Assembly (NCBI GenBank): GCA_007128315.1
Contig: SKXQ01000054.1
Span: 1-64,000 of the forward strand
DNA from: Spirochaetaceae bacterium
Lineage (GTDB): Bacteria > Spirochaetota > Spirochaetia > DSM-27196 > SKKC01
DNA length: 64,000 nt
Reading direction: 5' to 3'
Shown here: positions 42,000 to 45,637 of the stretch, one piece after another
Position numbering within the stretch: position 1 is the first letter of the stretch
Layout: the number at the start of each line of letters is the position of its first letter
Notes under the pieces: generated by a model
Told to the model about the DNA's origin: nothing
Seen by the model: the letters and a program-made list of their open reading frames with translations, nothing else
Databases searched by the model: none
Made by a program: the position numbers and the translations under genes

Positions 42000-42028
42000 C
42001 CTATACTGAAAAAAACACGCGGAGGCAC

Positions 42029-43357
42029 ATGAACACCAAGACGTTTTTCTCGGCTGACAGGGTGGTCTTCCTCAGATCACAAAACAAGAGGGACGCGATC
42101 GAGACCCTGGTGCGTACGGCCTGCGATTCGGCCGACATACGGAACCCGAAACTTGTCGCTGATCTGGTGCTGGCGCGTGAAGAAGAAATTTCGACGAAGG
42201 TGTCCGAAGGTGTAGCAATTCCACACGCGAAGTTACCCGACTCCGACCGGACGGTCGGCTGCATCGGCATTTCCGCTGAAGGCGTTCCCTACGATGGCGG
42301 ATCGGTTCACGTCATTGTGCTGATGCTCTGGGCACACACCACAAACCTCCTGGTCCTGAGCGATCTGGGCCGCCTGCTCCGACGATCCGATCTCTACGAA
42401 GCGCTGAAACGGTCCCGTACTGCCGAACAGGTTCTGAAAGTTCTGTCGAATCCTCCAACACGTGTAGAAAAGGAACCCGAGCGAAACAGGACGGCATCTA
42501 CGACCTTCCTGCACGCGCTCAGACTCGCGGAGTCCATAGGCCTTGAGTCCGTCCTGCTTTTTCCCGACGCGATGGGGTCGGTCTATTTCTTCAAGTCTGA
42601 ACCCGGCCTGCAGGATGCCCGCTCGTCGTTTCGCGGCCGGGTACTCCTTCTGACAAACGACCCTGAGGCATACACGTCCGATGGAATTGTTGACGAAATC
42701 ATCGACATGCCCGTGAAATCAGTCAGTGAGCACAACCTCACTACTACATCGCTCCTGTTTCTTCTCAGTCGGGGCATTCTGGAAAAGACCGAGCGCGTCC
42801 TTACGGTGTTCGGCGAGCCTTCAAGCGGAGCGCTGGATACCATACGACTTACGAACCTGAAACGCGAGTTCGGCCCCCTGTTCCGGCTTCCCAGCGGCGG
42901 CGTCGGCGGTGACATTGACGATCTGGTGTTCGCACGGGTCCTGCAACTGGCAACGGAACTCGCCCAGGAAGGCAGGGAGGGGAAGCCCGCGGGTACGATT
43001 TTTGTCCTTGGTGATTACGAGAACGTCAAGGGCTACTGTCACCAGCTGCTGGTAAATCCCTTTCGCGGTCTTGAAGAATCAGACCGGAACGTTCTCGACC
43101 CGAGCCTTGAGGAAACGGTGAAGGAGTTCTCGCGCATCGACGGGGCGTTTCTGATCGGCGGAGACGGTGTGATACAGAGCGCGGGCACCTATCTGCGCGC
43201 TGATGTGGAAGTCCAGGATCTGCCGCAGGGGCTCGGTGCCCGGCACACCGCAGCAGCAGCCATTACTGCCGTCAGCGCGTCTGTTTCCATAGCGATAAGC
43301 GAGTCGACGAAGCGGATCTCCGTCTTTCGCCAGGGACGGCGCGTTATGAGCGCCTGA
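42029..43357 (+). CDS. PTS EIIA (fructose/Ntr-type)-(PK alpha/beta-like)-diadenylate cyclase-like fusion protein
   Basis: N-terminus VLAREEEISTKVSEGVAIPHAKLPD (EIIA phospho-His motif); C-terminus IFVLGDYENVKGYCHQLLVNPFRG...VKEFSRIDGAFLIGGDGVIQSAGTYL...LPQGLGARHTAAAAITAVSASVSIAISESTKRISVFRQG matches DisA_N/DAC layout (DGA...GxRHx). Confidence 0.8.
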   Translation: MNTKTFFSADRVVFLRSQNKRDAIETLVRTACDSADIRNPKLVADLVLAREEEISTKVSEGVAIPHAKLPDSDRTVGCIGISAEGVPYDGGSVHVIVLMLWAHTTNLLVLSDLGRLLRRSDLYEALKRSRTAEQVLKVLSNPPTRVEKEPERNRTASTTFLHALRLAESIGLESVLLFPDAMGSVYFFKSEPGLQDARSSFRGRVLLLTNDPEAYTSDGIVDEIIDMPVKSVSEHNLTTTSLLFLLSRGILEKTERVLTVFGEPSSGALDTIRLTNLKREFGPLFRLPSGGVGGDIDDLVFARVLQLATELAQEGREGKPAGTIFVLGDYENVKGYCHQLLVNPFRGLEESDRNVLDPSLEETVKEFSRIDGAFLIGGDGVIQSAGTYLRADVEVQDLPQGLGARHTAAAAITAVSASVSIAISESTKRISVFRQGRRVMSA

Positions 43358-43366
43358 TTCCGTCGA

Positions 43367-45637
43367 CTACGGCCCCGCGGCAGGAGGAGCCGCATAGAGC
43401 GCGATAGCCTCGGCACGCGCCGAAGCGCGCGCGCTTCGCAGGTCGTCGGCGCTGCCGCGAAGTGAAGATACACCGTCAGGTTCCGACAAGGGCTGTGTTC
43501 CGTCATTCACGCGCATGACTGCGCCGGGATTGCGGTCGAGAAAACCCTTGACGTCATCAAAGGCTATGGAAAAAACCGAAACTTTCGTTTCACTCGTTAC
43601 CCTGACCGTGCTCGGCTGTTGACGGTGCAGCTCGCCCATGTTCCCGGCAAGCATACCGCGCTGCAGCGTGTTCGTTTTTCCGCCTTCTTCTGCGACCAGG
43701 AGACGTCCGTCCCGCACCAGAAAGACTTCCTGCACGGCTGCCCCGTATTCAACGAGGACCTCTGAAGCACCGTATTCGCGCGGCTGCAGCACCGACTCGA
43801 GCCACATCCGCTGGTAGTCGGTCAGGTGAACGAAGGGCAGCCCCTCGGCCAGCAGGTTCCAGGTCTCTTCGCTGCGGTTGCGAATCAGACGTCTCAGCAC
43901 TGTTTCGAACTCGGTTCCGGCGATGAAGTTCAGGAATCGCGAACGTTCTATGGACAGAATTTCGACTTCAGACTCGGCAATAACGTCGGCTGTGCGGTCG
44001 CTGTCGGTCATGAGAGCAACCTCGCCGAAGTAGTCATACGCACCAAGCGCTTTGCCACGCACGAGGTTGTCTACGAGGACCGCCGCGTTGCCGTTCATGA
44101 TGATATAAAAGTAGTTCCCCCGGGTTCCCTTGCGGATAATGTGCTCCCCGGCACGAAAGGTCTGCCGTTCGACAATGCCAAAGAACTGCTGCACTTTAGG
44201 TACGCTCATATCCCTGGCAAAATCGAGCTGCTTCAAGACGTCGAGAACCCGGTAGGCTTCTTCGTACGGCGGCGGAGCCGTGTCGAGATACCTGGTGTTC
44301 TCTATGCCGAAAGAAGCCCGACTCAACAGCGAATCGCCCGGAAAGTCCTTCTCTGCGATGTGAAAGCAGGTGATCCTGCGCTGTACGTCTTCAGGGAGAT
44401 TCGCCAGATAGGTAACCGGAGTGTGCAGCGGCGCTATACCCGCTTCGTGGTAGATCACATCTGCATCCCAGGGAAAGCTTTTCAGCTGCTCGTATCGCCG
44501 CTGATCAATCGTCCCGCCGGCAAGCATCGATTCATGGATGTCGGGGTCATTCTGGTGGTCGCTCGAGTATACGAAGCTCTTGTCCTGAAACGTGAGCCGA
44601 AAAGCCATGGTCGGAATCGAATGGACCGAGTAATAGACCGCGAACTCTCCCCCATGCACGTAGAAGCTCTGGTCTATATACACAGGGTGAAAATCAAAGA
44701 GGGACCTCAGAAAATCCGGGTGTTCGCCCGAGAAGGATGCATACTTTCGCAGAAAGCTCTGCATGATTGTTGGCGTTGTATACACGGTCACACGACCTTC
44801 CTGAAGAATTTTCTGAAAGGTTCCCGCGTCGTGGTCTGCATGGCAGTGCGTCAGGATGATGGAGTCTATGAACTTGGGGTTTACGTTCGACTGAAGCAGC
44901 CACTCGGTGCAGTTGACGGGGGGATCGACCATGATGCCGCTGTGGTTGAGCCAGATAATGAAACCGGACGTGTTATCATGCGGGTCAAAGCCGTGACTCG
45001 GTCCGAGGCATGTTACCCCGAAGCGCGGGGGCACAAAGGGAGTCGACAGTCGCTCACCGATATCATACTGCGGTGTGTAGGAGACCGCTGCCGGTACAGA
45101 GACCGCCTCGAGCCCGTCCCAACTGAACTGGAAGCTGTCGGGCGTACTGCGAATATGCACGCCGTCGATCTCGACTACATCATCCTTGAAGCAGACAATA
45201 TCAAACAGATCCTCCAGGGCCAGCGCCCCCCGGAAAAACGAGAGCTCACGGCTGATATCAGGAACCCAGGAATCGGGGTCATCCGAGAAGAGGTCCTGTC
45301 GCAGATCGAGCTTCCCGGGTCCGAATACCGACTCCCGAATCGCAACCGAAAGCCGCGCACCCTGTTCTTCGGTGCAGCATATCGTAACCTTCTGTTTGCG
45401 TATAAAAAAATTAAAGTAGATCGGAAACTCCATGTCACCGACGTTGATGCCCTTCTGCCAGTGAAACAGATCATGCGGGAGCACGAAGATTCTCGGGACC
45501 GACTCCGGCGTCACCAGAGTATCCTTGATCGTCTCCGGCGGAGCTCCCACCTGTATACCCCCGATTGGCGTCCGGACGATACGACCGCCACGCGGCAGTT
45601 CTACGACGGTCCCGACCTGTATTTCTGATTCCTTCAT
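43367..45637 (-). CDS. MBL-fold hydrolase with two C-terminal cyclic-nucleotide-binding domains
   Basis: 756 aa; ILTHCHADHDAG metallo-beta-lactamase motif, YSSDHQND; cNMP-like FRAGEHIIRKGTRGNYFYIIMNGNAAVLVDN...LGAYDYFGEVALMTDSDRTADVIAES and second repeat YGASEVLVEYGAAVQEVFLVRDGRLLVAEEG. Confidence 0.85.
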   Translation of the reverse strand: MKESEIQVGTVVELPRGGRIVRTPIGGIQVGAPPETIKDTLVTPESVPRIFVLPHDLFHWQKGINVGDMEFPIYFNFFIRKQKVTICCTEEQGARLSVAIRESVFGPGKLDLRQDLFSDDPDSWVPDISRELSFFRGALALEDLFDIVCFKDDVVEIDGVHIRSTPDSFQFSWDGLEAVSVPAAVSYTPQYDIGERLSTPFVPPRFGVTCLGPSHGFDPHDNTSGFIIWLNHSGIMVDPPVNCTEWLLQSNVNPKFIDSIILTHCHADHDAGTFQKILQEGRVTVYTTPTIMQSFLRKYASFSGEHPDFLRSLFDFHPVYIDQSFYVHGGEFAVYYSVHSIPTMAFRLTFQDKSFVYSSDHQNDPDIHESMLAGGTIDQRRYEQLKSFPWDADVIYHEAGIAPLHTPVTYLANLPEDVQRRITCFHIAEKDFPGDSLLSRASFGIENTRYLDTAPPPYEEAYRVLDVLKQLDFARDMSVPKVQQFFGIVERQTFRAGEHIIRKGTRGNYFYIIMNGNAAVLVDNLVRGKALGAYDYFGEVALMTDSDRTADVIAESEVEILSIERSRFLNFIAGTEFETVLRRLIRNRSEETWNLLAEGLPFVHLTDYQRMWLESVLQPREYGASEVLVEYGAAVQEVFLVRDGRLLVAEEGGKTNTLQRGMLAGNMGELHRQQPSTVRVTSETKVSVFSIAFDDVKGFLDRNPGAVMRVNDGTQPLSEPDGVSSLRGSADDLRSARASARAEAIALYAAPPAAGP

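Follow-up and report, generated by a model that had tools for sequence, protein, structure and literature searches.

The DacZ/CdaZ class of diadenylate cyclases (DACs) and each of the single domains treated here are already known, the sensor domains of DacZ have also been catalogued, since the Pfam names DacZ_P, DacZ_A and DacZ_T exist, and to our knowledge the signals controlling diadenylate cyclases are poorly known. In H. volcanii, DacZ is an essential protein that synthesises c-di-AMP in vitro, and the DacC class (Corrigan & Grundling 2013) takes in an Alkalispirochaeta protein (PMC6741144). In E. coli, the unphosphorylated form of PtsN controls potassium transport; in many other bacteria it is c-di-AMP that reports on potassium. 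Both govern potassium, and their roles in potassium and stringent control are parallel but found in largely different bacteria (PMC7900238). A 2026 review of the PTS-Ntr does not mention c-di-AMP. No experimental work on a fusion of an EIIA domain with a DAC was found in the open-access literature, and the DAC survey of Galperin 2023 may already list such a fusion.

A fusion of this kind is encoded by a Spirochaetaceae bacterium, within the window, i.e., the whole stretch of 64,000 nucleotides that was analysed. The gene and its domains, with the evidence on which each rests, are the following:

42029 to 43357, + strand: gene of the EIIA, PK_C-like and DAC fusion, 442 aa, ATG start (ORF and full-length homologues 32-98% identical)
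42021 to 42025, + strand: RBS-like motif GGAGG ahead of the ATG (seen in the sequence itself)
42044 to 42451, + strand: PTS EIIA domain of type 2 (Ntr/Fru-like), residues 6-141 (PF00359, PtsN profile, Foldseek)
42485 to 42919, + strand: PK_C-like (DacZ_P-like) sensor domain, residues about 153-297 (PF21755/PF02887 in the family, Foldseek)
42962 to 43339, + strand: DAC (diadenylate cyclase) domain, residues 312-437 (PF02457, NF041371, Foldseek)

The original prediction had placed a PTS EIIA domain at the N-terminus, a DAC at the C-terminus and a CdaZ-type, pyruvate-kinase-like segment between them, and had suggested an HMM search and an AlphaFold comparison as checks. Both ends were borne out by significant Pfam matches in the window protein, to PTS_EIIA_2 (PF00359; E 3.8e-19, 69.5 bits for a cut-off of 27) and to DAC (PF02457, DisA_N; E 2.8e-19, 69.3 bits, cut-off 27). 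The family profile also matched PtsN 1a6j at E 1.6e-23, and among the NCBIfam EIIA models FruA scored 43.7 bits on the window protein versus 33.6 for PtsN. In an AlphaFold model computed from 19 family sequences (mean pLDDT 82), the top PDB matches of the N-terminal part found by Foldseek were EIIA-Ntr structures (1a6j, E 7e-9, TM-score 0.79-0.85 on the target) while the C-terminal part matched the fold of DisA and CdaA (E about 4e-6). The middle segment of the window protein alone matched no Pfam model and gave only a weak DacZ_P hit (E 0.098). Across the family alignment, 18 of the 19 members matched DacZ_P, which Pfam describes as a probable sensor domain, with E values no higher than 0.1 (3e-16 for the best), and 6 of 19 matched PK_C (PF02887); when modelled separately (pLDDT 87), this domain returned pyruvate kinases as all 50 of the PDB matches listed, the best at E 1.4e-5, so that the proposed resemblance holds as well. 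Binding of FBP by the PK_C domain should not be assumed, the consensus loop reading HADALGD where pyruvate kinase has ATQGAKS.

The best NCBIfam DAC model was that of DacZ, NF041371, with E 3e-33 over residues 297-440, ahead of CdaA (1e-5) and DisA (4e-5); the equivalog cut-off of this haloarchaeal DacZ model was not reached (115 bits vs 430). By these profile scores, the fusion belongs to the DacZ class but lies outside the haloarchaeal NF041371 equivalog. HMMs and AlphaFold/Foldseek agree on the order EIIA, PK_C-like, DAC, which is that of a CdaZ/DacZ-class cyclase with an extra N-terminal EIIA.

Compared with two congeners, the fusion gene exhibits dN/dS values of 0.015-0.12 across every domain, and all three domains are under purifying selection. 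A chance or artefactual ORF is ruled out by the HMM scores, by a 98% identical orthologue and by dN/dS well below 1. The copy of the congener G002 (L003) contains an in-frame TAG at codon 375, right behind the DGA motif, reflecting either a sequencing error or a pseudogene.

Searches of GTDB species genomes returned 348 matching stretches, of which the best 80 come from Spirochaetota, Fibrobacterota (Chitinispirillia, Chitinivibrionales, Fibrobacter), Kiritimatiellota, other PVC bacteria and Planctomycetota; conservation of the fusion spans four bacterial phyla or more. The nearest named relatives of the window are uncultured Spirochaetaceae/Spirochaetales MAGs. Among 61 related genomes, homologues are patchy, 32-98% identical over their full length, and mostly a second DAC beside CdaA. 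In one complete genome (G010:C1:1238392-1246855), the EIIA-DAC gene shares its strand with the CdaA gene, at a distance of about 7 kb.

To examine the catalytic motifs, residues were counted over 77 aligned homologues from four phyla:

43139 to 43147, + strand: DGA catalytic motif, D371-G372-A373 (kept in 77/77)
43241 to 43249, + strand: RHT, the equivalent of RHR, R405-H406-T407 (RH in 77/77)
43298 to 43306, + strand: S-E-S, the equivalent of SEE, S424-E425-S426 (S424 and S426 in 76/77, the remaining row being incomplete)

The motifs that had been quoted for this protein (IPHA, DGAF, GARHT and SIAISEST) lie where they were said to lie and are conserved. D371, G372, A373, R405 and H406 are invariant in all 77 homologues. 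At the third position of the RHR motif, 54 of them have Ala, 16 Thr, 4 Val, 2 Arg and 1 Leu; on this count Ala or Thr stands there almost everywhere in the family, and T407 is no oddity of the window protein. In two haloarchaeal DacZ proteins (plasmid records) RHH replaces RHR and SES replaces SEE. DAC is also the most conserved domain in the 19-member spirochaete alignment, where mean column identity reaches 70%, versus 41% for the middle domain and 42% for EIIA.

PgpH breaks down c-di-AMP in Firmicutes. In seven Fibrobacterota genomes (G067, G070, G071, G072, G075, G076 and G078), all of them MAGs and possibly incomplete, the fusion is the only DAC found, and each of the seven encodes a PgpH-type 7TMR-HD phosphodiesterase; G074, an eighth genome whose sole DAC is likewise the fusion, gave no PgpH match. 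Because these sole-DAC Fibrobacterota keep a c-di-AMP-degrading PgpH, the fusion is best explained as a c-di-AMP maker. We therefore consider that the EIIA-DAC family probably makes c-di-AMP, and that the fusion is likely an active enzyme. The original prediction had read the second motif as RHT, which is correct, and had doubted activity on this ground, a doubt largely removed by the family-wide Ala or Thr, the RHH of archaeal DacZ and the sole-DAC genomes with PgpH. It is very improbable that the RHT and SES changes abolish catalysis by the DAC or give it a different product. While its GxRHRxA and SEE motifs are indeed incomplete with respect to CdaA, haloarchaeal DacZ bears RHH and SES and the H. 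volcanii protein is active and essential (PMC6741144); PgpH is kept in the sole-DAC genomes and purifying selection on the domain is strong (dN/dS 0.03-0.04 against the congeners). Given SES and RHT, the fusion may deviate from CdaA and DisA in its kinetics or in the metal that it prefers.

The window genome also encodes a canonical CdaA-YbbR pair (CdaA at L060:4479-5273), so a second DAC need not be catalytic there. Information could consequently flow in reverse, an ATP- or c-di-AMP-bound DAC acting as the sensor and EIIA as the output, with transporters or further targets as its binding partners in the manner of PtsN, since PtsN/EIIA-Ntr works by binding TrkA, KdpD and SpoT/Rel (PMC7900238). 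We regard this as improbable, given that no homologue deviates at the catalytic DGA and RH residues and that the fusion is the only DAC in the seven PgpH-bearing genomes.

The EIIA side of the protein centers on a single residue:

42224 to 42226, + strand: codon of His66, the predicted phosphorylation site within IPHA (aligned to the PHG motif of PtsN)

The stretch RExxxST...IPHA lines up with the loop of PtsN that carries the phospho-His. His66 is invariant in alignment A1 and kept in 62 of the 77 homologues across phyla; together with its R50, E51 and S55 context, it persists among the sequences sampled from Spirochaetota, Kiritimatiellota and Planctomycetota. In the window protein, His66 is likely phosphorylated. 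All the exceptions (14 Gln and 1 Tyr) fall inside one supported clade of Fibrobacterota (20 rows), in which the DAC is intact and often the sole one. Since this clade retains its DAC, phosphorylation of EIIA is dispensable in some members; a DAC can evidently function beside an unphosphorylated EIIA, and an EIIA that cannot be phosphorylated does not lock the enzyme off. In this clade (L116, L119-L142), where position 66 is mostly Gln, most of the fusion genes are flanked by an acyltransferase gene and a phosphoglucose-isomerase-like gene, and many loci share an acyltransferase / EIIA-DAC / phosphoglucose-isomerase-like / UPF0047 synteny.

The same clade lends itself to another explanation, in which the DAC is active but EIIA is a structural or docking pseudo-EIIA, the real signal being a ligand of the PK_C/DacZ_P domain and phosphorylation being irrelevant. 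DacZ/CdaZ proteins devoid of EIIA carry PK_C-like domains too (PMC6741144). We nevertheless hold this explanation to be unlikely in view of the His66, R50, E51 and S55 context retained in the three other phyla sampled, and of the presence of EI and HPr in nearly all genomes tested. EI genes were found in 19 of 20 sampled genomes and HPr in 15 of 16; the window genome itself contains three HPr and four EI genes, one EI carrying an N-terminal GAF domain as in PtsP.

Other components linked to c-di-AMP were also sought in the window genome. It contains DHH-family proteins and TrkA_C domains, the latter being c-di-AMP receptors elsewhere, and no PgpH-type phosphodiesterase was found in it. Regulation through a c-di-AMP riboswitch was rejected, as ydaO was detected in only 1 of the 61 genomes searched and was absent from that of the window; the single occurrence (L146, G005:C316:2619-2746) belongs to a relative of the window.

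Comparison of flanking regions and loci among spirochaetes revealed no conserved partner apart from family-specific ones, and the context is not PTS-related; inferring function from a conserved spirochaete neighbourhood was consequently abandoned. The convergent neighbour in the window (43367-45637, - strand) encodes a 756-aa protein with a metallo-beta-lactamase fold and two cyclic-nucleotide-binding domains, possibly a nucleotide-responsive hydrolase, and its homologues adjoin the EIIA-DAC gene in five near-relative loci (L066-L070). In the Pontiellaceae locus L108, the fusion gene adjoins genes for Enzyme I, a Zn-ribbon-EIIA and an amino-acid-permease-EIIA. A cluster of Zn-ribbon-EIIA, radical SAM, EIIA-DAC, Enzyme I and permease-EIIA genes is recorded at L108 1980-9326 and L117 1931-2818; as a side reading, EIIA modules could serve several proteins as regulators there. 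In the Planctomycetota locus L106 (3929-8317), the genes next after EIIA-DAC encode a CNNM-CBS protein and an antiporter of the Na+/H+ exchanger type, a hint of a link to ion homeostasis.

The conserved phospho-His, the presence of PTS partners and the Enzyme I gene beside the fusion gene in L108 make tuning of c-di-AMP by the PTS plausible. Overall, an accessory DAC with its output set by EIIA phosphorylation is the best explanation, and one we think somewhat likelier right than wrong. The fusion would be a cytoplasmic CdaZ/DacZ-class cyclase with two sensor modules ahead of the catalytic domain. A PTS relay, running from Enzyme I or the GAF-containing PtsP-like EI to HPr, would phosphorylate His66 of EIIA, while the PK_C/DacZ_P middle fold would act as a small-molecule or oligomerisation module. 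The states of EIIA and of the PK_C-like domain would together set the face-to-face pairing of DAC domains in which 2 ATP are converted to c-di-AMP. The unphosphorylated form would most likely be permissive, and PEP-rich conditions, under which EIIA is phosphorylated, would lower the output. In spirochaetes, the fusion would thereby add a nutrient-responsive input beside CdaA, while in several Fibrobacterota it is the only DAC found.

The architecture, the folds, the conservation of the motifs, the distribution and the occurrence of PTS and c-di-AMP partner genes are observations; the steps of the mechanism do not deserve equal trust. That phosphorylation controls the DAC at all is, we infer, slightly on the probable side. 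The direction of control, with the unphosphorylated form permissive, is a guess and a rather doubtful one. The more specific proposal that a PTS-Ntr-type phosphorelay gates c-di-AMP synthesis within one polypeptide, the Gln clade of Fibrobacterota having become secondarily uncoupled, stands a little short of an even chance. A built-in PTS phospho-acceptor would supply a defined input (PEP/HPr~P) to c-di-AMP synthesis, such that fuel status would directly set this salt-and-potassium messenger. If true, the fusion merges two potassium regulators, PtsN from Proteobacteria and c-di-AMP from elsewhere, and the His-to-Gln clade offers a natural control on whether phosphorylation matters.

Among known systems, CdaZ/DacZ (M. 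jannaschii CdaZ and H. volcanii DacZ; DacY and DacZ classes) resembles the fusion in that a PK_C-like/DacZ_P domain adjoins the DAC, and both share the NPF, KEFSRxDGAF, GLGxRHxAAAAIT and SES motifs. Unlike CdaZ/DacZ, the fusion is bacterial, adds an N-terminal PTS EIIA and bears RHT or RHA instead of RHH. Its EIIA has the fold of PtsN/EIIA-Ntr (E. coli 1A6J), the IPH phospho-His motif and the R50-E51...S55 context, although PtsN is a free protein whereas this EIIA is joined to a DAC and is slightly nearer to the FruA model. The CdaA paralogue of the same genome shares the DAC domain with DGA and RH. It differs by its CdaA_N transmembrane domain, for which Pfam gave no match in the window protein, and by its YbbR/CdaR partner gene, both of which the fusion lacks. 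The fusion has the DAC fold of DisA (Foldseek E about 4e-6) without the linker or HhH DNA-binding region, and its DAC lies at the C-terminus, reaching residue 437 of 442, whereas that of DisA is N-terminal. With EIIA and PK_C ahead of a C-terminal DAC and no CdaA_N, the architecture is neither that of DisA nor that of CdaA, as had been proposed from the outset.
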